From: a virus
Virus record (IMG/VR): IMGVR_UViG_3300025864_000021
Coordinates: 1 to 47,602 of that record
Reading direction: 5' to 3' (one strand)
DNA: 47,602 nucleotides
A program made the translations under genes and the position numbers. Positions 6,852 through 46,727 of the stretch are shown here, one piece after another. Positions within the stretch are counted from its first letter, which is position 1. The number at the start of each line of letters is the position of its first letter. The notes beneath the pieces are model-generated. The model made no database searches and was not told the DNA's origin. It saw nothing but the letters and a program-made list of their open reading frames with translations.

Positions 6852-6873
6852 AGCGGGAAGCGCGCTTCCCGCT
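6852..6873. repeat. Dispersed GCGGGAA palindrome, copy 1 (perfect)
   Basis: AGCGGGAAGCG followed directly by its reverse complement, a perfect 22-base palindrome in the 54-base gap before the major capsid gene. No T-run follows, so it is not a normal terminator. It is followed by GGCGGCGCTGAATAAAGGAG, which also appears in similar form near 34590 after copy 3. Confidence 0.85.
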
Positions 6874-6901
6874 GGGCGGCGCTGAATAAAGGAGTACCAC
6901 G

Positions 6902-7996
6902 ATGCCACTCGGACCAAACAGTCTTCAACAGTTCGTTCTGCCGTCCTACTGGGACGCCGCCTCAATCGAGAAGTACCGGTTGGCGGACGGCACGACCTAC
7001 GCCGCACTGATTGCGGACATTCAGCAGGCGCTCAGTCTCGCGGACTCCGTTGTGCTGAGTGATCCACTCTACTCCGGCCTAATCGGGCCGATTACCACTG
7101 ACCTAGCCTCGGAGTATCCCGTCGGTTCGACCAACGGCTTCCAGGCGCACACCGAGTACGGCGAGCCTGATGCCAAGCGCGGAGCGACTACGGGTGACAT
7201 GATCCCGATCCAGGCATTCGACCGAGGGTTGGGCTGGACCTGGGACTTCCTGCGCAAGGCGCGACGCGCCCAACTCGACGCGGATATCCAGTCTGCCATC
7301 GCCGACCGCAAGGCCATCTTCCAGAAGGCCGTTTTGACTCGGCTATTCAAGTCGACCTACACCGCTGTCGGCTCGACTGGGCGCGCGATGCCTCTGGCGG
7401 ATGGTGGCACGGCGGACTCGTCCTACGTCCCAATTGCCAACCCTGATCGCGTGGCTGCGTTCGCAAACACGCACACTCACGTTGTGGACCCCAACGGCAT
7501 TACTCAGGCGCTGGTACAGGCTGAGGTCGGGAACCTCTGGGAGCACGGGTACGACCCGCCATACGACCTGCTGGCCGCTGCCGCTGATGCGGCGGCGTGG
7601 GTGAACCAGACCAACCTCACCGGCTTCGTGCCACGCTCCGACCCGCTGATCCGTTACGGCATGTCGGCTAACTTGGCCGACGTTGGCGCGGATTACCTTG
7701 GAGTGATCGACACGCAGTACGGCGCGGTTCGTGTTCGCGTGACAGGCCGAATCCCGACGAAGTATTGGACCGTCTACAAGAGCTTCGGTTCACTCGATCC
7801 ACGCAACCCGCTGGTCGTTCGTGTCAGTCCCGACTTCGGTTTCAACGCCGTGTTGATGCCGAGCAGCGCTGTTCAGACCGACCCGCTCCAGAGGGCCAAA
7901 ATCTTCCTCGAGTTCGGCGTTGGCGTCGCCAACCGTGTCGGCGCGGTGGTTGCCGAAAACGACGCCGGAGCTTACAGCATTCCCACGATCATCTGA
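6902..7996 (+). CDS. Major capsid protein
   Basis: 364 residues, a typical length for an HK97-fold capsid protein without a protease-cleaved delta domain. It follows scaffold and decoration genes. An N-terminal arm (about 1-90) is followed by a long helix region (FLRKARRAQLDADIQSAIADRK, split near residues 110-135) that matches the spine helix in place and length. The late part (VRVTGRIPTKYWTVYKSFG) fits the P domain and the end (FGVGVANRVGAVV) the A domain. ATAAAGGAG precedes the ATG. It should be the most abundant virion protein. No protease gene is visible, so maturation by cleavage is not implied. Confidence 0.88.
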   Translation: MPLGPNSLQQFVLPSYWDAASIEKYRLADGTTYAALIADIQQALSLADSVVLSDPLYSGLIGPITTDLASEYPVGSTNGFQAHTEYGEPDAKRGATTGDMIPIQAFDRGLGWTWDFLRKARRAQLDADIQSAIADRKAIFQKAVLTRLFKSTYTAVGSTGRAMPLADGGTADSSYVPIANPDRVAAFANTHTHVVDPNGITQALVQAEVGNLWEHGYDPPYDLLAAAADAAAWVNQTNLTGFVPRSDPLIRYGMSANLADVGADYLGVIDTQYGAVRVRVTGRIPTKYWTVYKSFGSLDPRNPLVVRVSPDFGFNAVLMPSSAVQTDPLQRAKIFLEFGVGVANRVGAVVAENDAGAYSIPTII

Positions 7997-8014
7997 GGCT
8001 AGCAGGAGTGATGT

Positions 8015-8371
8015 ATGGCGGCGACTTACTCAAGCTCACTGAGTGCGGCGAAAGACCTAATTCGCTTTCGCCTTGGAGATACCGACGTTGACGCCGCGCT
8101 CTTGAGCGATGAGGAGATCGCCGCCGTCCTCGTGTTCAAAGGTGCGGTCGAAGACGATGCCTGCCTCTATCTCGCGAAGGGCCTGCTCGCGCGCTACGGA
8201 CGTGAGCCAATCAAAGTCACGCAGGACGGCCAGACGCTCGACTTCTCTGGCCGCATCGGCGTCTGGCAAGCGTTGGTCGCCGACCTCGCACAGCAGAGCA
8301 CGGGCGGTATCCGAATCAGGCGAATGGCGCGGCCTCAGTCAATCACGACGCCTGGGGAGTATTACCCGTGA
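8015..8371 (+). CDS. Head-tail connector (adaptor)
   Basis: 118 residues. The opening SLSAAKDLIRFRLGDTDV and LLSDEEIAAVL pattern followed by helices (DACLYLAKGLLARYG) is that of gp6-like adaptor proteins, which bind the portal and form the first joining ring. It is the first gene after the capsid protein, the normal place for it. Its last four bases overlap the next GTG start. Confidence 0.78.
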   Translation: MAATYSSSLSAAKDLIRFRLGDTDVDAALLSDEEIAAVLVFKGAVEDDACLYLAKGLLARYGREPIKVTQDGQTLDFSGRIGVWQALVADLAQQSTGGIRIRRMARPQSITTPGEYYP

Positions 8372-8733
8372 CGGGACTGCTTACTACGTCGGGGCTAGCA
8401 GCGTTGCGTGCTCGGATGACCGCGACGCTGCCGGACGTCTGCACTATCAGTCGCAACGTGGCACCGAGCGACGGGGCAGGCGGATCAACCGACACCTGGT
8501 CAACCGTGGCTACGACGGTCTGCTCGATTGCGCCGACGGGTAGCCAACCCGAGGAGCGCGCGATCTCTGACCGCATGGCGTCGAAAGTTGGCTACACGGT
8601 GATCTTGCCTTGGGATACGGCGGTGACCGCCAGAGACCTAATCGTCTCGGCGGGCCGTACGTTGGAAGTCGCGGGCGTCATCGTGCGGACACAGCAGCTT
8701 AGTTGCAGAGTAGTTTGTCAGGAAGTGCTCTGA
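8368..8733 (+). CDS. Head closure (stopper) protein
   Basis: 121 residues, GTG start overlapping the adaptor stop. The middle part is beta-rich (CTISRNVAPSDGAGG, then VGYTVILPWDTAVTARDLI and RTLEVAGVI), the pattern of SPP1 gp16 / HK97 gp7-like stoppers that plug the connector after packaging. Family identity is by position and fold pattern, not a diagnostic motif. The stop overlaps the next ATG. Confidence 0.7.
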   Translation: MTGLLTTSGLAALRARMTATLPDVCTISRNVAPSDGAGGSTDTWSTVATTVCSIAPTGSQPEERAISDRMASKVGYTVILPWDTAVTARDLIVSAGRTLEVAGVIVRTQQLSCRVVCQEVL

Positions 8734-9508: not shown

Positions 9509-9520
9509 GAGGCGATACCC

Positions 9521-10507: not shown

Positions 10508-10517
10508 GAGGGCAATC

Positions 10518-11026: not shown

Positions 11027-11029
11027 CCA

Positions 11030-14000
11030 ATGGTAACGATTGCCAGCCTAGCCGCGAAGGTCTCGGTCGAGGGCGCGGCTGCCGCGAAGGCGCAACTCGC
11101 CGCATTCGAGAGCCAGCTCAAGAGCGCCAGCAAGGGCGTCGGCTCGCTAGGTGCGAGTGGCGCTGGGCTTGGCGGACTGAGCGGCGGTCTCAATGCCGGC
11201 TCGGTCGCCACTGCTGGGTTGTCCGCTGCTGCTGGCGTTGCCAAGGTTGCGATGATCGGTCTGGCTGCCGCTGCTGCCGCTGTCGGCGCTGGACTAGTTA
11301 TTACTGTCAAGAGTGCCGCCGAGTTCGAGAAGATCATGTCAGGCGTCAAGGCCGTCTCGGGCGCTACCGCTGCCGAGATGAATAGTCTCTCCGCCCTCGC
11401 TATGCAACTCGGCAAGGACACAGTATTTAGCGCCGCTCAGGCTGGCACCGCGATTGAGGAGCTGGTCAAGGGCGGTATCAGCATTGCCGACATAATGAAC
11501 GGTGCCGCCAAAGCGACGGTCAATCTGGCTATCGCTGGTGGCGTGGACCTGGCAAGTGCCGCCGAGATCGCGGCCAACGCACTGAACATGTTCGGACTGC
11601 AAGGTCGGGACATGGCGCACGTCGCCGACATGGTTGCCGGTGCCGCCAATGCGTCGTCACTGAGCGTTCAAGACTTCCGCCTTTCCCTCCAGATGGCGGG
11701 CGCGGTCGCCAACCTCACGGGGCAGTCATTCGACAGCACGGCAACCGCGATTGCGCTGATGGGCCAAGCCGGAATCAAAGGTAGCGATGCCGGCACCTCA
11801 CTCAAGCAGATGCTAATCACCCTCCAACCAACAACCCGAACCGCCAAGGACATGTTTAACCAGCTCGGTATCACGGTGAACGACACAGGTAACAAGTTCA
11901 TCGATGCCAGTGGTAAGTACAAGAGCATGCGCGACATCTCCGAGGTCTTGCGCACGTCTCTTGCCGGGTACACCCAAGCCGAGAAAGAGATGGCACTCCA
12001 GGTCATGTTCGGCACCGACGCTATCCGTGCCGGCGCGATTCTGGCGAGTGGTGGTGCCGCTGCTTACGACACGATGGCTGCCAGCATGGGGAAGGTCACG
12101 GCCGAGTCGGTCGGCTTGGAACGCATGAATAACTTGGCTGGTGACTTCGAGAATCTCAAAGGTACTGTCGAAACGCTGGCGATCTCGTTTGGCGAATCCT
12201 TGACGCCCTCACTTCGGACGGTCACACAAGAGGGCACGACGCTCCTCAACGAAGTAATCACTGTTATGCCGGGCTTGATCGACATTGCGACGGAGAGCCT
12301 TGGCACCTTGGCCGAGCAGGCCAACACGCTAGCAAATGAAGCACTTTACACGCTTTACATCGCTGGCGAGACGGTTGGCGTGATGTGGGGCGATCTGTCG
12401 GCAGCGGCGGCTCCTGCCGTGGGCATGATCAATGCAGTCGCAAATGCCGCCGCCCAGGCAACTAGTTGGTTCAATGGGGCGGCCGCCGCGGTTCACAACT
12501 TCCTGGCAGAGTTTGGAATGGCGCCTAAGGGCGCTTTTGACCCGGTTGGCTCCTGGCTGGGGGGCCAGCTTACTGATAATCAAATCGGCGACCCTCTGAA
12601 CATTGCCAGAAACAAGGCGGCGGCTCAGGATGCCACTGCCGCGGCAAGCTGGGGGCGGCCCGATGAGTCTATCTACAGTGGCGGAGCCGCGTTCGCGCCG
12701 AAACCGTCTAATGCGTTGGATAACGCCAAGCAAGCCCTCGACGATTCTATCACCAGCGTCTATACCGACGCCAAGGCGCGCACTAACGCTATTGCCTCCG
12801 AAACGGCCAAGGCAAAGGTTGTTGCCGCGATGGGTGCTCCGGGAAACGTCTGGGATCCGAGTCCATCGACCGCGAAGCCGCCAGCGGCGCCAGCGCCCTA
12901 TCGCGCGCCGCTGGTAACAGGTGGCGGCGGTGGTGGAGGCGGCGGCGGAGGCAGCAGTGGCGGAGGTGGAGGAGGCGGCGGAGGTGGCGGTGGGAGTGCG
13001 GCTGCGAATGCAGCCGAAGCCGAAGCCAAAAAGACAGCGGCCATTCTCCAAGACGAAACGCAACTCATCCGCGACATGGGCGAAGAGACCGACAAGACGA
13101 TGACCAAGATCGCCGACATCAACACGCAACTCGGCAAGGATATCGCCAAGGCAACCGCGGATACCGCCAAGGCCATCGCCGACGCGGGCACGGCCGCTGA
13201 GAAGTCGCTGAGCGACCTGGCCAAGAGTGAGGCTATCAGCGTCGACGCGACTAATCGACGGAGTTCACTCGACGCGCGGCTAACAGGTGAGGACCTAATC
13301 CGTGGGCGTCGCCGCTCTGATGAAGACGACCTCTGGACCTACCAGCGAGCATTACTCACTGCCAAGACGCAGAAGGAAAAGGACGCGCTCACGCTGCAAC
13401 GGGACGACGCGCTGCAAGTCCTCACCTACCGCCGACAGCGTGAAGACGAGGATGCCGCTTGGCGCAAGCAGCAGGATGCGGCCAGGAACGCGCTCGAATT
13501 GCAACTACACGCCGAAGACCTCGCGCGCCAGCGCGCGGCCATCGTCGAAGAGCGGGACTTGAAAATCAAGAGCCTCAACGAAGAGCTGACTCAGAAGATC
13601 GCCGACTTGAAGACGACGGCCCTCGAGGCCATCGCCGCGCAGATCACCGAGTCCGAAGGCCGCCTCAAGGCCATGAAGGAAAGCTTCTGGGACAAGATCG
13701 CGGAGGCGGCGCGGCCGGGTCTCAAGGCTCTGGCTGACGAGATTGACAAGCAGATCGGCGCGCGAATGGCACAGTTGCAGGCGCTCTCGGGGATGCTCGG
13801 AGCGGGACCGCTGCCTGAGCCAGCACCAGGGGAAACCCCACCAACGACAGGCGGCACACCTTCGGCGGGAAGCGAACTTCCCGCCAGCGCGACTGGCGGC
13901 ACAGCTTCAGTCAGCGGGGTGCCTTACCGAATTGCCGGGACCGTCACCGCAACGGCTGGCGGACCGACCGTCATTGTCAACGCTGCCGGGTCAATTCTCT

Positions 14001-14074
14001 CCGAGCGAGACCTCATACAGCTCATTCGAAGCGGGATAGCCAAGGTCGGCTCTCGCAATGGTGATCTTCGATGA
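11030..14074 (+). CDS. Tape measure protein
   Basis: 1014 residues, the longest gene of the tail core. It sets tail length; at about 0.15 nm per residue this predicts a tail near 150 nm. Residues about 100-290 match the phage minor tail / TP901-like tape measure core (AEFEKIMSGVKAVSG, LAMQLGKDTVFSAAQAG, MAGAVANLTGQSFDSTA, GIKGSDAGTSLKQML). Hydrophobic segments lie at about 60-95 and 430-490. A glycine-rich stretch with few serines (about 628-655) separates it from a long coiled coil (about 660-910). Copy 2 of the dispersed palindrome lies in frame near the 3' end. Confidence 0.93.
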   Translation: MVTIASLAAKVSVEGAAAAKAQLAAFESQLKSASKGVGSLGASGAGLGGLSGGLNAGSVATAGLSAAAGVAKVAMIGLAAAAAAVGAGLVITVKSAAEFEKIMSGVKAVSGATAAEMNSLSALAMQLGKDTVFSAAQAGTAIEELVKGGISIADIMNGAAKATVNLAIAGGVDLASAAEIAANALNMFGLQGRDMAHVADMVAGAANASSLSVQDFRLSLQMAGAVANLTGQSFDSTATAIALMGQAGIKGSDAGTSLKQMLITLQPTTRTAKDMFNQLGITVNDTGNKFIDASGKYKSMRDISEVLRTSLAGYTQAEKEMALQVMFGTDAIRAGAILASGGAAAYDTMAASMGKVTAESVGLERMNNLAGDFENLKGTVETLAISFGESLTPSLRTVTQEGTTLLNEVITVMPGLIDIATESLGTLAEQANTLANEALYTLYIAGETVGVMWGDLSAAAAPAVGMINAVANAAAQATSWFNGAAAAVHNFLAEFGMAPKGAFDPVGSWLGGQLTDNQIGDPLNIARNKAAAQDATAAASWGRPDESIYSGGAAFAPKPSNALDNAKQALDDSITSVYTDAKARTNAIASETAKAKVVAAMGAPGNVWDPSPSTAKPPAAPAPYRAPLVTGGGGGGGGGGGSSGGGGGGGGGGGGSAAANAAEAEAKKTAAILQDETQLIRDMGEETDKTMTKIADINTQLGKDIAKATADTAKAIADAGTAAEKSLSDLAKSEAISVDATNRRSSLDARLTGEDLIRGRRRSDEDDLWTYQRALLTAKTQKEKDALTLQRDDALQVLTYRRQREDEDAAWRKQQDAARNALELQLHAEDLARQRAAIVEERDLKIKSLNEELTQKIADLKTTALEAIAAQITESEGRLKAMKESFWDKIAEAARPGLKALADEIDKQIGARMAQLQALSGMLGAGPLPEPAPGETPPTTGGTPSAGSELPASATGGTASVSGVPYRIAGTVTATAGGPTVIVNAAGSILSERDLIQLIRSGIAKVGSRNGDLR
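13864..13885. repeat. Dispersed GCGGGAA palindrome, copy 2
   Basis: GGCGGGAAG, four bases, CTTCCCGCC. It lies in frame inside the tape measure gene and is translated as AGSELPA in a region rich in Gly, Thr and Pro. Confidence 0.8.
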
Positions 14075-15345: not shown

Positions 15346-15349
15346 CAGA

Positions 15350-15865: not shown

Positions 15866-15868
15866 CCG

Positions 15869-21902: not shown

Positions 21903-22646
21903 ATGGCGGCGCTGGAGGGCAGCCAGAAAACCATCACAACGACGCTGAACTACAACGAGACAACTGGGTCGCAGGTGGACCTCCCGAACGCCGAGCCTGG
22001 CACCAGCCAGGTAATCTACACTGTGGCATCGGGCGATCTGCCGACTATCTCGTCCGCGCCGTTCTCTACTGGCTACTATGCCGAGGTCTACGTCGGAGGA
22101 CGCAACTACTCAGGCGGAGCTGTGACCGTCAACTATCGCGTCATACTGAACGGCACAAGCCAAACCACGGGAAGCGCCTCGGTCGCGACCGCAACTAGCT
22201 ATTTCACTGTCAATGCAGGCAGCTTCGGGACTAATCCTCTTGTGGTTGGCGACGTTCTCGAAGTACGGCTCTGGGCCAGCGCCGCTACTAGCGTCTACTG
22301 GGATTATATGTGTCTTTCCGTCGTCCCCACTCGGATGTTCCCCGAGCGCCGTCGACGGATGCTCCTGGACTTCAGCGCGACGCAGGCTTACTCGGGTTTG
22401 CCCTCGGGCACGTCGGCTTCTGGGGTGGTTTCTGGTAGTTACCTGGGGCAAAGCACTACGTCACTCAATCCCACCGGGTTTAACGGCGCGATGGCTATCG
22501 TGCTTGACACCGCGAACGGGATTGCCCGCCAGGGCCGTGACACCGCCCAAGCGACGGCCATAACTCAGCACGCGACGACGCGGCCATATTACAGCTACAT
22601 CTTCTATCTCTCGCCGATTTCCTACCGCGTCGGGCCTGATCTCTAA
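21903..22646 (+). CDS. Beta-rich tail or fibre protein
   Basis: 247 residues from ATG 21903 (AAGGTGAG upstream; an in-frame TTG at 21879 overlaps the previous gene and is possible). A jelly-roll-like strand pattern fills residues 20-160 (YYAEVYVGGRNYSGGAVTV, GDVLEVRLWASAATS), followed by a more basic segment (RMFPERRRRMLLDF) and a Ser/Thr/Gly-rich end. It may be a fibre-tip or carbohydrate-binding component. The TAA stop overlaps the ATG of the first His-x-His repeat gene by one base. Confidence 0.55.
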   Translation: MAALEGSQKTITTTLNYNETTGSQVDLPNAEPGTSQVIYTVASGDLPTISSAPFSTGYYAEVYVGGRNYSGGAVTVNYRVILNGTSQTTGSASVATATSYFTVNAGSFGTNPLVVGDVLEVRLWASAATSVYWDYMCLSVVPTRMFPERRRRMLLDFSATQAYSGLPSGTSASGVVSGSYLGQSTTSLNPTGFNGAMAIVLDTANGIARQGRDTAQATAITQHATTRPYYSYIFYLSPISYRVGPDL

Positions 22647-32847: not shown

Positions 32848-32908
32848 TGCTATAATAATGTTGCAGGACTGAACCCGGCGTATGCCGGGGTAGGCCCTGC
32901 TTCTTTTT
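32848..32908 (+). ncRNA. Possible tiny RNA: extended -10 promoter plus terminator hairpin
   Basis: TGCTATAAT (32848-32856) is an extended -10 box on the plus strand. A start near 32863 would give a 46-base RNA made almost wholly of a nested hairpin: GCAGG...CCTGC outside, CCCGGC-GTAT-GCCGGG inside, followed by TTCTTTTT (32901-32908). No good -35 box is seen. It lies between lipoprotein and repressor genes, opposite to both, and could be a small RNA or simply a terminator. Confidence 0.4.
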
Positions 32909-33527
32909 ACCTCGGCACCTTCATGACTTGAATGACCACGCCAAGCACCGCAAAGCCATCCGTTATATCGGCGTAGCCGTCGGCGTCAGCGTGCAACCTC
33001 GTACCGTGCTCATCAACCAAAAGGCGCTTGACATGAATGTCCCCGTCGCGTCTTGCCAAAACAATCGAGCCGCCACGCCACTCCCGATCCAAATCAACCA
33101 CGACGGTATCGCCGGGCTCGATCTGCGGTGCCATGCAATATCCGCGAACCGTGAAGGAAACCAGACTCGATGAAGCACCTTTCGGCGGCGTCATCGCCAC
33201 ATAGCCATCGGGCGCGGTAAAGCCGCCGCCAGCGCTCACCTCCGACACAATCGGTACCAGCACCACGCCGGTTAGGCCAGGCATCGGCGCGGTGTGCGGT
33301 AGCTCGGGTCCGACGTTGTAGCCAGCGGCAGCAAGGAGCGTGTTGGCGGGGATTTGGAGGTGAGTAGCGAGACGCTTTAGTCTGTCGGGATCGGGACGCT
33401 GGCGCTCGTCTGCTTCGACCTTTGCCAACCACGAGCGAGTGACTCGTGCGTTTGCCGCCAACTGACCTTGAGTAAAATCTAGTGACTTCCGAAGACGGAA
33501 AATCATCTGCCCGATAGTCTCAGTCAC
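32907..33527 (-). CDS. CI-like repressor (XRE HTH plus S24 domain, Ser-to-Cys)
   Basis: 206 residues. Residues about 5-65 are an XRE helix-turn-helix (LDFTQGQLAANARVTRSWLA). Residues about 90-200 are a LexA/CI-type S24 domain: the SEVSAGGGF segment fits the Ala-Gly self-cleavage site, HVKRL the general-base Lys. The nucleophile motif, normally GDSM, reads VRGYCMAP, so Ser is replaced by Cys. It should keep the prophage silent through the palindromes at 33550 and 33636. GTG 33527 is preferred because GAGGGG lies seven bases before it; an in-frame GTG at 33533 is too close. Confidence 0.88.
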   Translation of the reverse strand: MTETIGQMIFRLRKSLDFTQGQLAANARVTRSWLAKVEADERQRPDPDRLKRLATHLQIPANTLLAAAGYNVGPELPHTAPMPGLTGVVLVPIVSEVSAGGGFTAPDGYVAMTPPKGASSSLVSFTVRGYCMAPQIEPGDTVVVDLDREWRGGSIVLARRDGDIHVKRLLVDEHGTRLHADADGYADITDGFAVLGVVIQVMKVPR

Positions 33528-33549
33528 AACCACGCCCCTCTGTTCCGCC

Positions 33550-33567
33550 GTGGTACGAGTGTACCAC
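33550..33567. promoter_or_regulatory. Operator O1 at the repressor side
   Basis: Perfect palindrome GTGGTAC-GAGT-GTACCAC, 18 bases, lying 23 bases upstream of the repressor start. Its core is repeated at 33636-33651 over the early promoter. It should mediate repressor autoregulation. Confidence 0.75.
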
Positions 33568-33615
33568 TAGGCGGGGGAACAGCGATAGAATTGGACCAGA
33601 TTGCTGAAAAACCCA

Positions 33616-33651
33616 TTGACATTCGGAACGCGCCGTGATACACTCGTACCA
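33616..33651 (+). promoter_or_regulatory. Early rightward promoter with operator O2
   Basis: TTGACA (33616-33621), 17 bases, TACACT (33639-33644). The -10 box lies inside TGATAC-ACTC-GTACCA (33636-33651), which matches O1 read on the other strand (TGGTAC-ACTC-GTACCA) except for one base. Repressor bound here would block transcription of the Cro-like gene and the early operon. Confidence 0.8.
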
Positions 33652-33680
33652 TCAACCGAGCGCAAGAGGGGCAAGGCAGG

Positions 33681-33929
33681 ATGCTAGAACAGATCGTCAA
33701 GAAGCAGGAGGAATTGAGCCTGAACGATACTCAGTTTGCCGCCCTTATCGGGATTCCCCGAGAGACTTGGCAGAAGACAAAGACTGGCCAACGCCCCCTC
33801 AGCCGCCGAATCCTGATCCACGTTTTGCGCAAGTTCCCTGAGCTTCGGGAGGCCGCCGGTCTCTTTTTGCTCTCGGGTGTCCCAGGCGTCACAGTCATTG
33901 TGACAGCCGACACAACCACCGCCGCCTGA
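33681..33929 (+). CDS. Cro-like DNA-binding protein
   Basis: 82 residues, ATG after GGCAAGGCAGG, about 37 bases downstream of the early promoter -10 box. An XRE-like helix-turn-helix fills residues 5-50 (LSLNDTQFAALIGIPRETWQ then KTGQRPLSRRILI). The C-terminal part is hydrophobic and Thr/Val-rich (FLLSGVPGVTVIVTADTTT), which could be a dimer strand. Divergent placement from the CI-like repressor around shared operators makes a Cro role likely. First gene of the rightward early operon. Confidence 0.75.
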   Translation: MLEQIVKKQEELSLNDTQFAALIGIPRETWQKTKTGQRPLSRRILIHVLRKFPELREAAGLFLLSGVPGVTVIVTADTTTAA

Positions 33930-33941: not shown

Positions 33942-34256
33942 TTGTCCACATCCTGGGAGATCACCGCGTCCGAGATGGCCGAGGTTCTGGACTGCCCGAA
34001 GTCGCGCGTCTACCGCCTGCTCTCGGCTGGCGTCATTCCGAGCCAGCAGGGCGAGGGGATGGACAGGGTGACTCATCGTGCCGAGTTCTTACGCTGGGTT
34101 CGGGACGGACGCCCCGAGCGCCAGATCACCGAGGAAGCGATTGCTCGCGCGGTCGCAAGAGCGCTCCGCGAGCTGCTGGCCGAGATGCAGCCGACGATCT
34201 CGCTGAGAGCAGTCACGGCGCGACCGACACGAATCTATCGGGAGGCCATTGGATGA
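33942..34256 (+). CDS. HTH (MerR/excisionase-type) DNA-binding protein
   Basis: 104 residues, TTG start after AAAGGAGTCCACC. The N-terminal part is a clear winged HTH of the HTH_17 type (ITASEMAEVLDCPKSRVYRLL, then AGVIPSQQGEG and a His-containing wing). The C-terminal half is a charged helix (EEAIARAVARALRELLAEM). It could be the excisionase or an early regulator; it competes for the excisionase role with the protein at 30325. Overlaps the next start by four bases. Confidence 0.7.
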   Translation: MSTSWEITASEMAEVLDCPKSRVYRLLSAGVIPSQQGEGMDRVTHRAEFLRWVRDGRPERQITEEAIARAVARALRELLAEMQPTISLRAVTARPTRIYREAIG

Positions 34257-34567
34257 CAGTCTCCACACTACCGAGCCTCCGCGTGCTGCCCGCTGTTGAG
34301 CCAGCGCCAACCGACTTCAACGCGCACTGGCATCTGTTCGGCTACTACCCTCGGACGAGGGACGTGTACCGCTTGGTTCGCACTTTCTACGCAGCATTCG
34401 ACCGCAACACGCCACCTACTGAGCTTCCCGCCACCGTGCGCGATTGCACCGAGCTTGCACTGGTATTTGGCGTCCATTGGACCGACATGGTGGACCAGTT
34501 CCGCGCAGCTCGAGGGCGACCACGGCGAGCGAAGCTCGGCGGGAAGCGTTCCCGCCAGGCGGCGTAA
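34253..34567 (+). CDS. Hypothetical early protein
   Basis: 104 residues, ATG overlapping the previous stop. A helical domain (RDVYRLVRTFYAAFDRN; VRDCTELALVFGVHWTDMV) is followed by a basic tail (ARGRPRRAKLGGKRSRQAA). The tail is encoded across copy 3 of the dispersed palindrome. The pattern suggests a small nucleic-acid-binding protein, but no family is recognised. Confidence 0.6.
   Translation: MTVSTLPSLRVLPAVEPAPTDFNAHWHLFGYYPRTRDVYRLVRTFYAAFDRNTPPTELPATVRDCTELALVFGVHWTDMVDQFRAARGRPRRAKLGGKRSRQAA
34538..34556. repeat. Dispersed GCGGGAA palindrome, copy 3
   Basis: GGCGGGAA, three bases, TTCCCGCC. Translated as GGKRSRQ, a different reading frame from copies 2, 4 and 5. It is followed after about 35 bases by GGCGGCTGAATAAACGGAG, similar to the sequence after copy 1. 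Confidence 0.8.
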
Positions 34568-34621
34568 CACGTCAATCATCGCACGCAACCAGGCGGCTGA
34601 ATAAACGGAGGTGACAACGGA

Positions 34622-36475: not shown

Positions 36476-36520
36476 GGGGCCTCGGCATCCCGCTGAGGCC
36501 CCTAAGCTTCGGCATGAAGC
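36476..36520. other. Two hairpins between recombination genes
   Basis: GGGGCCTC/GAGGCCCC (36476-36483, 36495-36502; 11-base loop) and then GCTTC/GAAGC (36506-36510, 36516-36520). The loops both contain GGCAT. No T-run; likely RNA-processing or a weak terminator in the 82-base gap. Confidence 0.45.
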
Positions 36521-36550
36521 AGTCAGGTAAGGGCACGGTGAGGTGACAGT

Positions 36551-37300
36551 TTGGGAATCCAGTCAGTGTTGGTGGACCAAAGAGAACCTTCCTGGGCGCA
36601 GGAGCTGAAGTTCGGCGGCGCGCCCGTTATGTCGATGCTGCTTGATACTGGCGACTTCGTCGTCACGTTGGACAACGGCGATGTCTTAGGAATTGAACGG
36701 AAAACGTGCAGCGATTTCCTAAACACCCTACGTGACGAGCGGCTGTTCCCGCAGCTCGCGAAGTTGCGCGACTTGACTCAATGGGCCTACCTGGCACTGG
36801 TAGGCAACATCCAGCCCGGTCCGGCGGGGACGTGCGTCGTCGACGGTCGGGCGAGTGGCTGGAACTGGGCGAGTGTCACCGGCGCATTGCTCTCGGTCCA
36901 GGAGTGCGGCGTCCATGTGCTCTACGTTGCGAGCGATGAAGATCTCGAGGCGTCGCTACTCAGGCTCGCAAACCGCGAGCGGCGCGCAATGCGCGTGCGG
37001 CCAGCGCGCGACCTCACCCTGGTAGGCGACGCGGAGACTGTGCTTGGCTCGTTGCCCGGCGTTGGTCCCGACCGCGCGAAGGCGCTGCTCGATTACGCTG
37101 GCTCGGTGGCATGGGCGCTGACGTGGCTCGCTGACGACACGATGCCGGAGAGCGCGGTGCCAGGAGTGGGGCAGGGGACGAAGCGCCGAGTGCGGCGGGC
37201 GCTGGGCCTAGACGACGCGCAGGCCCTCGCAGTGGTGCTCAAGGCGACGGGCAACCCCGTAGTTCGGGTGACTCAGGAAGAAATGGAGTTGGTTGGATGA
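36551..37300 (+). CDS. ERCC4-type (XPF/Mus81-like) nuclease
   Basis: 249 residues, TTG start with GGTGAGGTGACAG upstream. The ERCC4 nuclease motif is complete: VDQREPS (about 8-14), DTGDFVV (about 32-38) and GIERKTCSDF (about 47-56), giving the acidic and basic catalytic residues. A helix-hairpin-helix pair closes the protein (LGSLPGVGPDRAKALL at about 170-185; VPGVGQGTKRRVRRAL at about 213-228). XPF/Hef-family enzymes cut branched or flap DNA. In this operon it probably resolves replication or recombination branches. It overlaps the RecT-like gene by four bases. Confidence 0.92.
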   Translation: MGIQSVLVDQREPSWAQELKFGGAPVMSMLLDTGDFVVTLDNGDVLGIERKTCSDFLNTLRDERLFPQLAKLRDLTQWAYLALVGNIQPGPAGTCVVDGRASGWNWASVTGALLSVQECGVHVLYVASDEDLEASLLRLANRERRAMRVRPARDLTLVGDAETVLGSLPGVGPDRAKALLDYAGSVAWALTWLADDTMPESAVPGVGQGTKRRVRRALGLDDAQALAVVLKATGNPVVRVTQEEMELVG

Positions 37301-38031
37301 CGAACGAGTCTCGCGCGCTGGTAGCCCAGCAGCCACAGCTCTCAATGTCCACTTGGTCAGTGATCCAGGCGATCGCCCCAACGATGCACCAATCGCGGCT
37401 GTTCGGCGTCGCCAGTCCCGAAGCTGCCGCCGGCGTCATGGTTCTCGGTAGCGAACTAGGGTTCGGCCTCGCCGCGTCGTTCGACCTCATCGCCGTAGTT
37501 CAGGGCAAGCCGACCCTCAAGCCGATAGGCGCACTTGCGCTCATCTACCGATCTGGCGAGCTCGCCGGAATGAAAATTGAGGACAAGCCCGGCTCCTGCA
37601 CAGTTTGGATGAAGCGGCGAAACGGCTTTGAGTATCAGTTGACCTGGACGATTGAAGACGCCCGACGGGCGGGACTTGTGAAGGCGGGCGGCGCTTGGGA
37701 GACCTATCCGGCGAACATGTGCCGCTGGCGCTGTATCGGCTACGTCTCCGACGTGGTTTTCCCCGATGTGCTCGGTGGCCTTCGCCGTGCCGACGAGATG
37801 GGCGCGGAGATCGACACAACCGGCAACGTCGTCGATGCCGAGTGGTCAGTGGCACCGACACAACCCACCGCTGTCGTCGCCGAAGTAGTGGCTGCCCCCG
37901 CCGTTACCCTCGACGACCTCGTGAGCACCTACGGTGCCGACCGCGTGCTCGAAGCGGCGGGCGGGCGGATTCCCGGCACGTTGGACGAAGTAGCCGCGGC
38001 GGCCAGGGTGCTCGGTGCGAGTAATGGTTGA
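37297..38031 (+). CDS. RecT-like single-strand annealing protein
   Basis: 244 residues, ATG overlapping the previous stop. The order AAAGVMVLGSELGFGLAASF, then VVQGKPTLKPIGALALIYRS, then TWTIEDARRAGLVKAGGAW, ETYPANMCRWRCI and VFPDVLGGLRRADEM is typical of phage RecT-family proteins that coat and anneal ssDNA during replication and recombination. The last 60 residues are an Ala/Val-rich linker and a small helical end. It pairs with the exonuclease-like gene that follows. Confidence 0.78.
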   Translation: MTNESRALVAQQPQLSMSTWSVIQAIAPTMHQSRLFGVASPEAAAGVMVLGSELGFGLAASFDLIAVVQGKPTLKPIGALALIYRSGELAGMKIEDKPGSCTVWMKRRNGFEYQLTWTIEDARRAGLVKAGGAWETYPANMCRWRCIGYVSDVVFPDVLGGLRRADEMGAEIDTTGNVVDAEWSVAPTQPTAVVAEVVAAPAVTLDDLVSTYGADRVLEAAGGRIPGTLDEVAAAARVLGASNG

Positions 38032-38803
38032 ACTCAACCATTTGTCGTACTCGAGCCTCAGCCTCTACTCAATGTGCCCGCGCGCATGGCGCTATCGTTA
38101 CGTCGAGAAGGTTCAAACACTCACGGCGCCCGCTCTTGTCCTGGGTAGCGCGTTTCACGCGACTGTCGAGCGTGTTGTGCGAGCTTCCGTCACGGGCGAG
38201 CAAGTCGACGCGGGAGTGGTGTGGGAAGCAGAGTGGGCAAAGGTTTGCGAGCAAGAGATCGCCTGGAACGGCGACGCGCCCGAAATCATCGGTGCCGAGG
38301 GTGCGCGGATGATTGCCTGCCAGACTTCGCGCGATCTGCTCGCGTCACTCAGCCCGCTCGTTGAGAACGGCGAGCCAGTGATCGAGAAGCGCTTCGAGCT
38401 GAGCGTGCCTGGCGTGCCGGTTCCAGTGCTGGGGTTCATCGACCTGATTACCGCGGACGGCGTGCCGTGCGACCTGAAAACGGCGGGAAGGGCATGGTCG
38501 GTGGACCAGGCGCGGAAAGAAGTCCAGCCGACAGTCTACTTGGCCGCTCTGAATCAACTGGGCTACACGCTGAACCCCGAGCGGCGCTTCACGCATCACG
38601 TCTGGGTCAAGGGTCGGAATCCCCGAGTCGAGTCCTTCACGACGACGCGCACTGTCGGCGAGATGTTCCAGCTCTTCGCCAACATCCGTGACACCTGGAC
38701 CAGTATCGAGGCTGGTTTGTTCCCGACCAACACAACGACGTGGAAACATTCGAAAAAGTTTTGCGACTTCTGGGCGATGTGCCCGGCCGGCGGGGCGGTG
38801 TAG
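38024..38803 (+). CDS. RecB/Cas4-like PD-(D/E)XK nuclease
   Basis: 259 residues from ATG 38024, overlapping the RecT-like stop (a GTG at 38015 is a possible start). Motifs in order: LSYSSLSLYSMCPRAWRYRY (about 4-23), LGSAFHATVERV with the active-site His (about 43-54), GFIDLI (about 134-139) with the acidic residue, CDLKT (about 146-150) and QARKEVQPTVYL. Cysteines in SMCPRAW and in FCDFWAMC at the C-terminus could hold an iron-sulfur cluster as in Cas4/AddB, though only three are evident. Such enzymes resect DNA ends and commonly pair with RecT-like proteins. Confidence 0.85.
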   Translation: MVELNHLSYSSLSLYSMCPRAWRYRYVEKVQTLTAPALVLGSAFHATVERVVRASVTGEQVDAGVVWEAEWAKVCEQEIAWNGDAPEIIGAEGARMIACQTSRDLLASLSPLVENGEPVIEKRFELSVPGVPVPVLGFIDLITADGVPCDLKTAGRAWSVDQARKEVQPTVYLAALNQLGYTLNPERRFTHHVWVKGRNPRVESFTTTRTVGEMFQLFANIRDTWTSIEAGLFPTNTTTWKHSKKFCDFWAMCPAGGAV

Positions 38804-38804
38804 C

Positions 38805-39683
38805 ATGGTCAACTTCTTGACCCTACACGCGGACTACCTGCGACGTGTCGGGCCGCTACACGCCGAGCTTGTCCCGGTAGGCAACGCGCTTGCTTTCACG
38901 AGCACTTTTGACGCCGGCCTGGTCGCGGCATTCAAGGCAGCAATCCCGCCCGAAGGTCGCCAGTGGGACAAGGCCAATCGGCGATGGCTGGTTTCGCCAC
39001 AGTACGGCAAGGCCTGCGCGGACCTCGCGGCGACCTATCTCGGTGTCATGGTGATGGTGCCGAGTGTGGCAAGCGCGGTGGCGATCGAAACGCGGCTTGT
39101 GAAGCTGGAGTATCTCGGGCGAGCGAAAGACCGACAGGGCGGTGAGCCTTCTGCCTTCGGCTGGGCCGACGGCGCCTGGTCGCTCGTCTTCCCCGAGACC
39201 GTGCTGCGCGAGTGGTTCGAGGCCGTGCCGGCGAAGCCGGGCGAGTTGCCGACGTTGTACGCCGCGCTGGGTGTCAAGCAGGAAGTTGACGAGCCAACTC
39301 TGCGCAGCGCCTACCGACGGATGGCGCGACTTTGGCACCCTGACGTGAACAAAGAAGAAGACGCTGCTGAGCAGTTCAAGGTTATCCAACACGCCTGGGA
39401 AGTGATCGGGGAGCCAACGTTGCGGCGCAAGTACGACGTTGGGCTACGACTCCAGGCGGCGGCAAAGGTCGATGCACTACCGACGCGCTCGGCCTGGGCC
39501 GACCCGAGCGGCTTCCGCGCGCCACTACGTTGCGGGTATGTGCTGGTCGAGGGGCAAGTCGCGTTGGCTCGTTATGTCGTCTCTCGCATCCTACAGTGGG
39601 AAGACGTTACCCGAGCGGATGGCAAGATCATGGTCTCGAGCTGGGTAATGGGCGCCGACAAGCCGGAGGTGGTTTGGGCATGA
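38805..39683 (+). CDS. J-domain protein with HARP-like N-terminus
   Basis: 292 residues from ATG 38805. The N-terminal part has AAFKAAIPPEGRQWDKANRR, split across residues about 38-57, a pattern like the HARP/annealing-helicase accessory domain. Residues about 145-215 are a J-domain: LYAALGVKQEVDEPTLRSA, then the diagnostic HPD in ARLWHPDVN, and AWEVIGEPTLRRKYD. J-domains recruit and stimulate DnaK-type chaperones. Among replication genes it may bring host DnaK to the phage replisome, as lambda P does through host DnaJ; that is inference. The stop overlaps the VWA gene start. Confidence 0.8.
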   Translation: MVNFLTLHADYLRRVGPLHAELVPVGNALAFTSTFDAGLVAAFKAAIPPEGRQWDKANRRWLVSPQYGKACADLAATYLGVMVMVPSVASAVAIETRLVKLEYLGRAKDRQGGEPSAFGWADGAWSLVFPETVLREWFEAVPAKPGELPTLYAALGVKQEVDEPTLRSAYRRMARLWHPDVNKEEDAAEQFKVIQHAWEVIGEPTLRRKYDVGLRLQAAAKVDALPTRSAWADPSGFRAPLRCGYVLVEGQVALARYVVSRILQWEDVTRADGKIMVSSWVMGADKPEVVWA

Positions 39684-40246: not shown

Positions 40247-40248
40247 GA

Positions 40249-41499: not shown

Positions 41500-41905
41500 A
41501 CGGCATCTGGGACTGTAACCAACCAGATCGCAGACTAAAGTGACTGCTGAAGGGGACATAACCCAACTGGCCTTGCGGATTAGCGGTAACTGTAGCGGAA
41601 ACGCGGACACCGGTCCGGACCGAGTGGGGCAAGAGAGTACTAGCGCGAACGGTATTCGTGTACGCCACCAAAGGTAAACGACATGGTGAACGAGTCTTAC
41701 AGATTTACACCCATCGCGCGTAACGGGCGTAAGCCATAATCCTGGACCATAACCCAGGATTACAGGATTACAGCAAGGTATGAGCTGGTATAAAGGTGGA
41801 CAACGGTTGGACAGGTCAAGATTTAGAATTACGCGTTACACCCCCTATTAAGGGTGTAACGCGTAATTCTGAAGACCCAGGGTGTAACGGGTTCTGGAGG
41901 AATTG
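41500..41905. promoter_or_regulatory. ori: Candidate replication origin with repeats and palindromes
   Basis: 406 bases without a gene, between helicase and primase. It holds GGTCCGGACC (41612-41621); TAATCCTGG/CCAGGATTA (41737-41745, 41754-41762); tandem CAGGATTA (41755-41770); and a 19-bp perfect inverted repeat, AGAATTACGCGTTACACCC and its complement (41825-41843, 41852-41870; 8-base AT-rich loop). The 8-mer GGGTGTAA occurs four times (41705, 41836, 41852, 41880; two in each orientation). The region is more AT-rich than its surroundings. An origin or a repressor-controlled leader of the primase would both fit. Confidence 0.6.
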
Positions 41906-43006: not shown

Positions 43007-43017
43007 GAGATGACATC

Positions 43018-43263: not shown

Positions 43264-43562
43264 TTGCGTCACAATGGCAGGTTCTCTCGCCGCGTCGCGT
43301 CGTCTACCCGTCCCCTGCCTGCGGCGCGAATGACGAACCGTACACCTACCGCTGCGAGCCACACCTCGAGCTGACGGACCGAGTGGCGGAGAGGCCAGTT
43401 GCGACGAATGCGACGACCGACGCCGAATCTACCAGTCCAGTCGTTCATCCCTCGCTTCTCAAGGAATACTTTGATGGCCTGGTGTTCGCGATCTTTGGGA
43501 CGAGTATTCTCTGGACGGGCATCATCCTCGCGATAATCGCGCTGAAGGGGTTGCTCGGATGA
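43248..43562 (+). CDS. Hypothetical single-span membrane protein
   Basis: 104 residues, ATG after AACGGAGGAGGTG. A hydrophilic N-terminal part of about 75 residues with two Cys (PSPACGANDE; YRCEPHLEL) is followed by one membrane segment (about 78-101, GTSILWTGIILAIIALKGLL). Not recognised. A membrane protein among early genes could act in superinfection or host takeover, but nothing specific is visible. Confidence 0.6.
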   Translation: MAQRVIASQWQVLSPRRVVYPSPACGANDEPYTYRCEPHLELTDRVAERPVATNATTDAESTSPVVHPSLLKEYFDGLVFAIFGTSILWTGIILAIIALKGLLG

Positions 43563-44584
43563 TAGCCGAGAGTGTCGCGACTCTGACCCCGGCGGGAACT
43601 CCGAAGGTTCCCGCCAATTGCCCGCGCTGCGAAGGCAACCTGATTGCCGAGTGGGACACCGACGTTCGCCGCAACATCCGGGAGTGCATCGCGTGCGGCT
43701 GGAACGAGCTGTCGCCAACACGGACCTTCCTCCCGGTCAGGATGAGCACGGCGGGAGCTTCGGCTCCCGCCGAGGTGGCCGTGCCCGCGCCGAAAGCCGA
43801 GGCGCCGATCGCGCCGCCAGTAGTCGAGCCGGTTGTCGAGACGCCTGCCGCGCCAGAGCCCGGCGCTGATCTGCTCACTCGGCACGAGGTGGAGATCGAG
43901 TACGGCCTGACCGCTACGCAGATTTGGAGCGCGACGAGAGCTGGTATGCTCCACCCGGTTGGCGAGCCACACAAGCTTCAGAGCTTCTACCGCGCCGACA
44001 TTGATGCGTGGCTCGCTGCAATAGCGGCAAGGCCAATCGCGCTAGTTCCCAAGCCCGAGCCGACACCAGCTCCAACGCCTGAGCCAACGCCGGATCTCGA
44101 GCTGACACCCGAGCCGACCGCCGAGGTCGCGCCGATTGCGCCCGCTACTGAGCCAGCGCCCGACGTGCTAATGTCGGCCTCTGAGGTCGCCGCCGAGTTC
44201 GGTATTACCGCCAACCGCGTTTACAACGCGGCGTTGGTAGGTCATCTCCGAGTCGCCACCAGAGGGCGCAACAACGTGCGCTACAGACGCGCCGACGTGC
44301 TGGCGTGGCGAGCCTCGGCCACCGACACGACCAACCGTCACAAGCGCGCGGCGGCAGAGGAGCACACGAAGTACCAGGCGAAACAGGTGCAGGCACCCGT
44401 TGTCGCCGCCGACCCGCTCGTTGCCGTGCTCGCCGAGTACCGCAAGGTCAAGGCGGAATTGCTGGCGACCGAGGGCGAGGTGCGCGTGTTCGAGGGCAAG
44501 CTGGCGGATGCTCGCTACCTGGCTGGGCTGCTGGGGCTGAAGGTGGACGAGCTGAAGGGGCTGATTCTGGAGGGGCTGTTATGA
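43559..44584 (+). CDS. Zinc-ribbon protein with two HTH domains
   Basis: 341 residues, ATG overlapping the previous stop. Order: zinc ribbon (CPRCEGNL ... CIACGWNE, about 21-50); Pro/Ala/Glu linker; HTH 1 (LLTRHEVEIEYGLTATQIW, about 105-145); a long Pro/Glu/Thr linker (TPAPTPEPTPDLELTPEP, about 165-195); HTH 2 (MSASEVAAEFGITANRVYN, about 202-250); C-terminal coiled coil (EYRKVKAELLATEGEVRVF). Both HTH units are of the excisionase/MerR-like winged type. Beads-on-a-string DNA binding suggests it can join two DNA sites. Two palindrome copies (4 and 5) lie in its 5' third. Confidence 0.72.
   Translation: MIAESVATLTPAGTPKVPANCPRCEGNLIAEWDTDVRRNIRECIACGWNELSPTRTFLPVRMSTAGASAPAEVAVPAPKAEAPIAPPVVEPVVETPAAPEPGADLLTRHEVEIEYGLTATQIWSATRAGMLHPVGEPHKLQSFYRADIDAWLAAIAARPIALVPKPEPTPAPTPEPTPDLELTPEPTAEVAPIAPATEPAPDVLMSASEVAAEFGITANRVYNAALVGHLRVATRGRNNVRYRRADVLAWRASATDTTNRHKRAAAEEHTKYQAKQVQAPVVAADPLVAVLAEYRKVKAELLATEGEVRVFEGKLADARYLAGLLGLKVDELKGLILEGLL
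43591..43615. repeat. Dispersed GCGGGAA palindrome, copy 4
   Basis: GGCGGGAAC, seven bases, GTTCCCGCC. Translated as AGTPKVPA at the start of the two-HTH protein. Confidence 0.8.
43749..43772. repeat. Dispersed GCGGGAA palindrome, copy 5
   Basis: CGGCGGGAGC, TTCG, GCTCCCGCCG: a 10-bp stem capped by a TTCG tetraloop, a very stable RNA hairpin. Translated as AGASAPAE. Confidence 0.8.
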
Positions 44585-44850
44585 GCAATCGTGTTCGCAT
44601 GTTCATGCACGTGGTTGAGCTCGAGCGCGCCGCGCGGGCTGCTTCCGGTACGTCGGCGGTTGGCGGGAAGGGACTTCCCGCCGCGCTTCCCGCCATGCTG
44701 GAGATGAAGGCTGAAAAGGTCGCGCAGATGTGCCAAGACTGGCAGCGGCTGATGAACGTGATCGAGTGGTACTGTGACCGCGCGGAAGACCTGCCGGACT
44801 CCGGTGTCCGCGCGGTCGCGGCGAGGGATTCGGCGAAGGGGCTGGAATGA
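44581..44850 (+). CDS. Hypothetical helical protein
   Basis: 89 residues, ATG overlapping the previous stop. Helical (MFMHVVELERAARAAS; KAEKVAQMCQDWQRLMNVIE), interrupted by a Gly/Leu/Pro/Ala stretch (GGKGLPAALPAM) encoded exactly by palindrome copy 6. This looks like an insertion of the element into a helical protein. Not recognised otherwise. Confidence 0.6.
   Translation: MSNRVRMFMHVVELERAARAASGTSAVGGKGLPAALPAMLEMKAEKVAQMCQDWQRLMNVIEWYCDRAEDLPDSGVRAVAARDSAKGLE
44662..44694. repeat. Dispersed GCGGGAA palindrome, copy 6, with extra half-site
   Basis: GGCGGGAAG, GGA, CTTCCCGCC (44662-44682), followed directly by a second right half, GCGCTTCCCGCC (44683-44694). Confidence 0.8.
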
Positions 44851-45215
44851 AACGCCGAGTCGTTGCCACGCCTATCCCGCTCTTTGTCGAGGACCACGTT
44901 GAGGCGGCGCGTTTCTCGACTGACCCGAACGCCTACCTTGCCGCGCTCCGTCGGGTGTTGGACACGACGTGCCCCGTGTGCGGTGAGCCGACGCACGAGT
45001 GGAAGCTCTCTAGCGACCCGCCCGGAACCGGGGCAATGGACTGCGAGCACTGCCGCGCGATCACGATGTGGCGAGACGGCTCCATCTTTCGTCAATACTG
45101 GGGGAATCGGGCGCGACGAGAACGGGACTGGGTGCGGTGGCAGCCTAGCGGGAACGAAGTTCCTGCTGGCGATGTTGAGGATTGGACTGTGAGTTGGGAG
45201 AGAGCGAATGACTGA
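44847..45215 (+). CDS. Hypothetical zinc-ribbon protein
   Basis: 122 residues, ATG overlapping the previous stop. A four-Cys ribbon (CPVCGEPTHEW ... CEHCRAIT, about 42-72) sits in the middle, followed by aromatic, basic residues (RQYWGNRARRERDWVRWQ). Palindrome copy 7 encodes SGNEVPAG near the end. Nucleic acid or protein binding is likely; role unknown. Confidence 0.6.
   Translation: MKRRVVATPIPLFVEDHVEAARFSTDPNAYLAALRRVLDTTCPVCGEPTHEWKLSSDPPGTGAMDCEHCRAITMWRDGSIFRQYWGNRARRERDWVRWQPSGNEVPAGDVEDWTVSWERAND
45147..45167. repeat. Dispersed GCGGGAA palindrome, copy 7 (imperfect)
   Basis: AGCGGGAAC, GAA, GTTCCTGCT; one base differs from a perfect stem (G-T pair in RNA). Confidence 0.65.
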
Positions 45216-45990
45216 GACAAAAGCGCCCTACCGCGTGGCTCAGTGCCCAGTTTGCAAGACGCCTGTTACGACCGTTACAGGCGAGGATGGCACGACCTAC
45301 ACGCGCGCGCTCTACGCTAGCGACCGCGAGCGGCAGCAGGTATACGCGGCGCTGGTGGAAGAGCGCTCGCGGGTGTTGGTCTTGCAGGCGCAGTGTGACG
45401 AACTGAGGCGGGCGCTGGATAATCCGGAGGTAGACAAATGCCGTGCGCTTCTTGATGGCGCGGCTATTGAGCATAGTGGCTGCACCCTGTCCGAACGGGT
45501 GAAGCGACTTGTGGAGCGTGAGCACGGGTATTTTGAGCTGGGGATAAGTGCTGCCGGCGCGCGGAACGTTGCGGTCGCGGCCCTCGAGCTCGAGCGTGCT
45601 GAGGTCGTGAGGCTGCGCGGCGAGCTAGGCGCCGCGTTCGACGCCGCGCTCCGGCAGGCCCGGTCAATTCTCTACGAACAGGGCAGAAAGGATGAGGCGG
45701 AAACCGAACTGAACGAGGCTCGCGATGTTCTGTTCGACCTGGGCGTGCAATACGATGGCGACGGAGTCAAAGACCGAATACAACGGCTAGCATATCGACT
45801 GAGCGAGCAGCGCGACTCCGCGCGCACGTGTGCCGCGAGGTGGAAGCGTTGCGCCAAGCGCGCCCTCTATGGCGATACCGATGTGGTGTCCACCAAGCCA
45901 ACCCCAGGGCGGCGTATCACATCGGTGGTGGTTAGCAGTCGCGTTCGGGCGCCGCTAATTATCGAGGAGTTGGAGGAGAAGGCAGGATGA
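45208..45990 (+). CDS. Hypothetical coiled-coil protein with CxxC
   Basis: 260 residues, ATG overlapping the previous stop. An N-terminal CPVCKT knuckle is followed by long coiled-coil segments (about 38-75 and 120-210; VVRLRGELGAAFDAALRQA), with scattered Cys. The C-terminal 40 residues are basic and Val-rich (RRITSVVVSSRVRAPLI). Not recognised. Many phage early operons carry such ribbon plus coil proteins. Confidence 0.6.
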   Translation: MTETKAPYRVAQCPVCKTPVTTVTGEDGTTYTRALYASDRERQQVYAALVEERSRVLVLQAQCDELRRALDNPEVDKCRALLDGAAIEHSGCTLSERVKRLVEREHGYFELGISAAGARNVAVAALELERAEVVRLRGELGAAFDAALRQARSILYEQGRKDEAETELNEARDVLFDLGVQYDGDGVKDRIQRLAYRLSEQRDSARTCAARWKRCAKRALYGDTDVVSTKPTPGRRITSVVVSSRVRAPLIIEELEEKAG

Positions 45991-46403
45991 GGCTGTTCAC
46001 TAGCCGCTATGCAAACCCCGACCTTGCCAACCGCCCCGACCTCGTGAAGGTCAAAATCTCGGTAGGTGTGCCACGGGGCAGGCACATCGGGTATAGAGTC
46101 GAGGCGCAGGTGTGGAATCTGGAGCCGACGTGGCGAATGGTTCAGGACGTACGCAAGGGGATTATCACTCGCGAACAGTACGAGGTCGCTTACTCCAAAA
46201 CTCTTGCCGAACTCGACATCGGGTTCCTCTCGTTGCAGCTGGAACACATTGGCCGGACCAACGGCAACCGAGATCTCGTGCTTCTCTGCTTCGAGGACTT
46301 GCGCAAGCCGGGTGCGTGGTGTCATCGCAGAATGTTCGCCGATTGGTGGCAGAAGCAGACCGGCGAGGAAGTGCCGGAGTTGGAGGAGGAGAACCATGCC
46401 TGA
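45987..46403 (+). CDS. DUF488-family protein
   Basis: 138 residues, ATG overlapping the previous stop. The pattern LFTSRYANPDLANRP, then VKISVGVPRGRHIGY, and near the end LLCFEDLRKPGAWCHRRMFA is that of DUF488, including the conserved Cys and the CHR motif. The biochemical role of the family is not settled. It is shorter than many chromosomal members. Neighbouring genes give no clear hint. Confidence 0.8.
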   Translation: MRLFTSRYANPDLANRPDLVKVKISVGVPRGRHIGYRVEAQVWNLEPTWRMVQDVRKGIITREQYEVAYSKTLAELDIGFLSLQLEHIGRTNGNRDLVLLCFEDLRKPGAWCHRRMFADWWQKQTGEEVPELEEENHA

Positions 46404-46668
46404 GCATACCCATTTTGGACGAATCGGTCCTGGTGGCCCGTTCGTGGCTGAACCGTTTGGGCGTCGATTCCTGGCGTTGATCGTCTTCGACTGGGGAACG
46501 CACATCTGGCTCTGGCAGCGAGCGAAGTATCTCTGCCTCACGTGGCGTCCCGGCCGACCTTCGCTCTATCTCTCTCGCAACGCAACACCGTGGGCGGCCT
46601 ACTGGGGCATTGGCTGGTTTGATGGGCGGTTCACCTGGCGGCATCGGGGTGAGAAGCCGCAAGTCTGA
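46396..46668 (+). CDS. Hypothetical Trp-rich small protein
   Basis: 90 residues, ATG after GGAGGAGGAG, overlapping the DUF488 stop. Rich in Trp and other aromatics (VFDWGTHIWLWQRAKYLC; TPWAAYWGIGWFDGRFTW). A hydrophobic middle is not long enough for a clear membrane segment. Not recognised. Confidence 0.55.
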   Translation: MPEHTHFGRIGPGGPFVAEPFGRRFLALIVFDWGTHIWLWQRAKYLCLTWRPGRPSLYLSRNATPWAAYWGIGWFDGRFTWRHRGEKPQV

Positions 46669-46706
46669 CGGCGAGCTGGGCTAGGCAGACAATCTATCGA
46701 ACTGCT

Positions 46707-46727
46707 AGCGGAAGCCGAGCTTCAGCT
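46707..46727. repeat. Dispersed palindrome, copy 8 (diverged)
   Basis: AGCGGAAGC, CGA, GCTTCAGCT, one mismatch, in the 73-base gap before the next gene. It lacks one G of the core, so it is a weaker member. Confidence 0.5.

Follow-up and report, generated by a model that had tools for sequence, protein, structure and literature searches.

A dispersed palindromic hairpin family in a temperate phage genome, possibly a miniature element of the REP or RPE kind

The genome of a temperate phage (IMG/VR record IMGVR_UViG_3300025864_000021, positions 1 to 47,602; the whole 47.6-kb stretch is referred to here as the window) carries a palindrome of the form GCGGGAA-n-TTCCCGC in eight places, five of them exact, two clear and one weak and only probable, in agreement with the number given in the initial annotation. 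The window has a 127-bp direct repeat at both ends and includes genes for terminase, portal, capsid and tape-measure proteins, integrase, RecT, exonuclease, helicase and primase. The copies belong to a common family with hairpin-preserving changes, one of them marks an insertion at the capsid junction, those within genes reside in frame in linkers or at protein termini, and no comparable set was present elsewhere among the sequences examined. We put the odds at about even (roughly 0.5) that this is a miniature palindromic DNA element, similar to repetitive extragenic palindromes (REPs) or Rickettsia palindromic elements (RPEs), which arose or arrived in the lineage of this phage, was copied to several places and is private to that lineage.

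The exact pattern, with 0-12 nt between the half-sites, matched at five starts (6853, 13865, 34539, 43592 and 44663); the initial annotation had placed them one base further left, including an outer R-Y pair, and its coordinates are kept below. The shuffled-sequence control set beforehand did not yield similar counts: none of 100 dinucleotide shuffles contained any exact match, and across 60 windows simulated with an order-4 Markov model the mean was 0.017 exact matches, compared with the five observed, and 0.12 one-mismatch matches, compared with one observed. That single mismatch is a G.U on the + strand in the copy at 45147, and the two mismatches of the copy at 43749 compensate each other. 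The copy at 46707 is weak (RNA fold z -0.98; covariance model 18.1 bits, E 0.075); it was the top match of the covariance model outside the training set, with the runner-up at 14.0 bits, and is probably a degenerate eighth copy.

We read the copies as one family, descended from a single palindrome, although shared selection could give the same pattern. In the seven strong copies, stems of 8-11 bp enclose loops of 3-7 nt, and the element, about 19-25 bp long, has the approximate consensus (C/T)RGCGGGAAG-CGAA-CTTCCCGCY(G/A), with a nearly invariant, dyad-symmetric heptamer core that contains no stop codon in any frame. In a single-strand alignment of these seven copies, 95.7% of 69 stem cells were paired and three of ten pairs were altered on both sides, compared with 32-66% paired cells and 0-1 two-sided pairs in slid-partner controls; the values for paired cells and for the covariation score were each reached in 8 of 500 shuffles, from only seven copies. 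Four of the seven loops contain CGAA/TTCG, a count not reached in 20,000 random draws of window interiors (P 0.005 for any 4-mer shared that often in permuted interiors). Six of the seven strong copies are flanked, directly outside the stem, by T..G or C..A, whereas this is so for 7 of the window's 34 other hairpins and, outside the window, for 7 of 119 that have the same stem. The use of this flank as a sign of orientation was dropped, and no orientation is claimed, because one transition in an outer pair that was once C-G or T-A would produce T..G or C..A just as well.

The gene context proved to be as first described, with two copies (6852 and 46707) between genes and six inside open reading frames (ORFs). 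Those six lie in frame in five ORFs, in linkers or near protein ends, which is a trait of RPEs. Their left arms are read as GCG.GGA at 13864, 43591 and 43749, and as GGC.GGG or AGC.GGG at 34538, 44662 and 45147; the use of two reading frames, together with the compensating stem changes, bears out the proposal that the nucleic acid, rather than the peptide, is kept. Four of the seven strong copies fall within 1.7 kb, confirming the clustering from ~43.6 kb onward (P 0.006), and the strong copies lie nearer the ends of coding sequences than random positions (P 0.014), both P values being post hoc and dependent on our own choice of ORFs.

Copy 1 (AGCGGGAAGCGCGCTTCCCGCT, 6852-6873; exact match; RNA fold -20.0 kcal/mol, z -4.4) separates a cement-like ORF (6440-6847) from the major capsid gene (6902-7996). 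Copy 2 (13864-13885; exact) is in frame in the tape-measure ORF 11030-14074, assigned by PHROGs, where its peptide SAGSELPA forms residues 945-952 of 1014 within a G/P/T-rich linker. The extreme C-terminus of a small ORF (34253-34567; GGKRSRQAA, then the stop) is formed in frame by copy 3 (34538-34556; exact). Copies 4 and 5 share the ORF of a helix-turn-helix (HTH) protein, 43559-44584: copy 4 (43591-43615; exact) is in frame in its N-terminal tail (PAGTPKVPA), directly before a CxxC motif, and copy 5 (43749-43772), whose stem carries one double change from A-T to G-C and whose loop is TTCG, is in frame in a low-complexity proline-alanine linker (TAGASAPAE). In the structure model of this protein, the predicted local distance difference test score (pLDDT) is below 50 at residues 1-16 (copy 4) and 49-82 (copy 5); the single-sequence models are poor (mean pLDDT 49 and 58) and lend weak support at most. 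Copy 6 (44662-44682; exact), in frame within a loop-like GTSAVGGKGLPA stretch of ORF 44581-44850 (GGKGLPA), is followed by an extra right arm, GCGCTTCCCGCC, at 44683-44694. Copy 7 (45147-45167), with its one G.U pair in the + strand RNA, is in frame near the C-terminus of a Cys-rich protein (ORF 44847-45215; SGNEVPA), and the probable copy 8 (46707-46727), with a weak fold and a covariance-model match, lies between genes, immediately 5' of GAGGTGAGGTGATG, a likely ribosome-binding site.

The capsid junction is the site at which the element can be compared with relatives. The cement-like and capsid proteins have relatives in loci L208 (55% and 60% identity, respectively) and L047 (30% and 35%), where the two genes are separated by 16 and 14 nt, respectively, both without the hairpin, compared with 54 nt including the hairpin in the window. 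This comparison of sequences supports a gain of the hairpin by insertion at this junction relative to the two relatives. A further locus, L009, is a fragment of the same phage, identical over 6,279 bases, and has the hairpin. The insertion lends partial support to the mobile REP- or RPE-like palindrome that had been proposed at the outset, whereas the marks of movement proper, namely an IS200-type transposase, a GTAG or CGTC tag and a target-site duplication, were not seen.

A comparable set of copies was absent from 18 related virus records, from 600 genomes of two phyla and from pattern scans of IMG/VR. Among 24 records from earlier loci, 22 of them obtained via TerL searches, the loose pattern GCGGGA-n-TCCCGC was present in five. 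Two were virus records with a single match, one of which, G022, had been reached through a hairpin scan instead of TerL; the remaining three, all whole genome bins, had 1, 13 and 23 matches, where the reversed control had 0, 8 and 30. The covariance model, run on 34 loci (561 kb), had its best match at E 0.12 and thus none below E 0.1. The strict form GGCGGGAA-n(3-7)-TTCCCGCC, present three times in the 47.6 kb of the phage, occurred in 11 of 301 genomes from the phylum of the L207 bin (Chloroflexi) and in 11 of 299 from that of the L204 bin (Steroidobacteraceae), one copy each, so that none of the sampled genomes is a likely source of the element as a host REP. Assignment of a host through the TerL relatives was also dropped, because the titles of their bins (Steroidobacteraceae, Spirochaetes, Lokiarchaeota and Chloroflexi) were too mixed to be trusted. 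A search for RecT across 47 genomes from the class of the Chloroflexi bin gave no match, a result to which no weight is attached.

Scans of IMG/VR for T-GGCGGGAA..TTCCCGCC-G and T-AGCGGGAA..TTCCCGCT-G returned 15 and 9 contigs, respectively, with a single copy in each stretch, and L009 is among the nine; 20 of these 24 contigs were traced to full records with a single copy each, and the 29 records searched, which include those 20, had one copy each, except for one with two. When the hairpin was required to be followed by GGCGGC, only L009 and an unrelated contig, L229, were recovered; in the latter (5461-5487), the same stem and then GGCGGC stand ~110-120 nt before an apparent gene start, which may be chance. 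Separately, a TerL relative (L029, L030, L031) contains two or three copies of a different hairpin, GCGGCACTC..GAGTGCCGC, with T-rich runs after it and the same ACCAACCGCTTG leader, that is, repeated terminators.

If the palindrome is a mobile miniature element, its copies would have moved by a DNA route requiring the folded hairpin, and purifying selection would have removed those landing in protein cores, while a core free of stops in all frames would allow in-frame copies to survive. The movers might be a transposase of the host, or the phage RecT (37297-38031) and exonuclease (38015-38803), acting through annealing and strand exchange; with the Y1 transposase absent, movement would need either host machinery or such RecT-type annealing. 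Adjacent to these two genes, an ORF on the + strand (36551-37300) encodes a protein with a Pfam ERCC4 nuclease domain (40.8 bits) and a weak helix-hairpin-helix (HHH) match; PHROGs names the product an HNH endonuclease, but the Pfam domain is ERCC4, giving an XPF-like protein beside RecT and the exonuclease. This ERCC4/HHH protein is a candidate partner of the hairpin, no more, and we give little credence to the more specific scheme of a transposase-free palindromic element, confined to this lineage, that RecT, the exonuclease and the ERCC4/HHH protein would copy, seeding new in-frame linkers in phage proteins.

Several observations weigh against a mobile element. The Y1 transposase family (PF01797) was found in 0 of 1 genomes for the window, with the control positive in 5 of 14 genomes; neither a GTAG nor a CGTC tag occurs in the flanks of any of the eight copies, and no target-site duplication was seen at the copies. 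Relatives were available at the capsid site only, with none found for the other seven sites: a search for relatives of two of the hairpin-bearing proteins gave none, and homologues of the hairpin-bearing proteins were found only for the N-terminal part of the tape measure. The number of pairs altered on both sides is unexceptional by itself, being reached in 242 of 500 shuffles. No two loops are identical while the stems are near-intact, a pattern that points either to copies of some age whose stem selection still maintains or to a direct function, and the leader tail common to copies 1 and 3 fits duplication of a leader segment, not movement of a bare hairpin. A host REP family in a phylum outside the two sampled is also possible.

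Among known systems, RPEs are palindromes inserted in frame within unrelated proteins, and most are longer, about 100-150 bp, and bacterial. Residence in frame in unrelated proteins is thus common to RPEs and the phage element, which differs in being ~19-25 bp long. One account (PMC3733652) describes REP palindromes and REPINs as dispersed, 20-40 bp long, with a stem of 5-13 bp and a variable loop, some of them intragenic and some in small families, and it links RPE-4 and RPE-6 to CGTC repeats. The phage element resembles REPs in size, hairpin form, dispersal and the presence of copies inside genes, and its stems and loops fall within REP limits (5-13 bp and 2-20 nt), but it lacks the GTAG/CGTC tag, the phage has no Y1 gene of the REP-associated tyrosine transposase (RAYT) type, and the element is absent as a set from the sampled host genomes. 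Since the tests for tag and transposase failed, we do not file the element as a REP or an RPE. The nearest phage precedent that we found is that of the start-associated sequences (SAS) and extended SAS (ESAS) of cluster K mycobacteriophages, inverted repeats that recur in the genome with a spacer that varies, are confined to that group of phages and stand by translation starts; the ESAS arms are imperfect, 17 bp long and tied to the 13-bp SAS at gene starts (PMC3203893). By contrast, the arms of the phage element are 8-10 bp long and almost perfect, most of its copies are within ORFs, and only copies 1, 8 and, loosely, 3 precede a translation start. Literature searches, within the terms used and the open-access text of PubMed Central, turned up no account of a comparable scattered palindrome set carried by a phage.

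The palindrome might instead be a functional recognition hairpin that a phage or host protein reads as a cruciform, as a single-stranded DNA hairpin or in mRNA, with a role in, say, replication, recombination or the processing of mRNA; selection would then keep the stem while the loops are free to drift. We regard this as less likely than a mobile element, but as a real competitor to it. The strongest point in its favour is that the stems stay near-intact while the loops vary, as if the hairpin were still being read; seven of the eight copies fold stably (RNA, -17 to -23 kcal/mol), a 1.7-kb stretch downstream of the helicase and primase genes contains four of them, and the ERCC4/HHH protein could act on such structures. 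On the other hand, most copies are within unrelated genes with no consistent position relative to starts, and there is none in the immunity region, the likely operator of which is a different palindrome.

It is unlikely that the hairpin, GGCGGC and TGAATAAA-GGAG together form a leader for translation or mRNA stability, as at the capsid gene, comparable to ESAS, with the genic copies as offshoots. In both copies 1 and 3, GGCGGC does start 2 nt past the heptamer, copy 8 is directly before a likely ribosome-binding site, and the tail of copy 1 (GGGCGGCGCTGAATAAAGGAGT, 6874-6895, + strand) includes that of the capsid gene and is similar to the tail of copy 3. The shared tail is nevertheless looser than first claimed: TGAATAAA follows GGCGGC by 2 nt in copy 1, whereas in copy 3 (tail at 34557-34610, + strand: AGGCGGC, a second GGCGGC, then TGAATAAACGGAG) a stretch of 30-odd nt displaces it to a place after the second GGCGGC, ~35 nt further on, and the full copy 3 tail had no other match at ≤3 mismatches, ungapped. 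Moreover, copies 2, 4, 5, 6 and 7 are without such a tail and are not similarly upstream of the next gene's start.

A palindromic operator for a dimeric repressor or a partition protein is very improbable. The dyad symmetry and the nearly invariant heptamer would suit it, but a spacing of 3, 5, 6 or 9 nt between half-sites changes the helical phase, which argues against a dimer site of fixed spacing; of the suggested binding site for a phage or host protein, this classical form fits poorly, and the spacing and stable folds point to a hairpin instead. Furthermore, the divergent promoter region of the S24-type HTH repressor (32907-33533) has no copy, and TGGTACnnnnGTACCA is found there instead. 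That region (33534-33683) contains TGGTACGAGTGTACCA and TGATACACTCGTACCA, likely the operators of this repressor; the operator-like palindrome has two matches there, a count reached in 19 of 100 shuffles. Finally, intrinsic terminators or chance G+C-rich hairpins are hardly tenable: the same stem elsewhere in IMG/VR has a run of at least four T within 12 nt in 65 of 119 stretches, but none of the eight copies in the window has a T run on either side, which argues against terminators, and the near-zero expectation from the shuffles and the Markov control led us to reject chance.

Other features of the genome were observed in passing. The ORF at 38688-39683 (+ strand) encodes a DnaJ domain (65 bits), which is uncommon in a phage replication region. 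The 400-nt gap between the helicase and primase genes (41500-41902) contains palindromes at 41825-41870 (19-bp arms) and 41737-41762 and repeated GTAACGSG words, and is a possible replication origin. A degenerate 66-nt (22-residue) repeat occurs in ~23 copies at 22778-28274, in ORFs 22646-23347 and 23347-28491.

Bacterial chromosomes are known to contain palindromes of the REP type, and a few bacteria have in-frame inserts of the RPE type. The present set, private to a single phage genome and with six of its eight copies in ORFs, would demonstrate that phages are able to carry and spread elements of this sort, and would offer a small system in which to test their movement and their effect on proteins. 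If a phage protein reads the hairpin instead, the palindrome would be a new recognition element.

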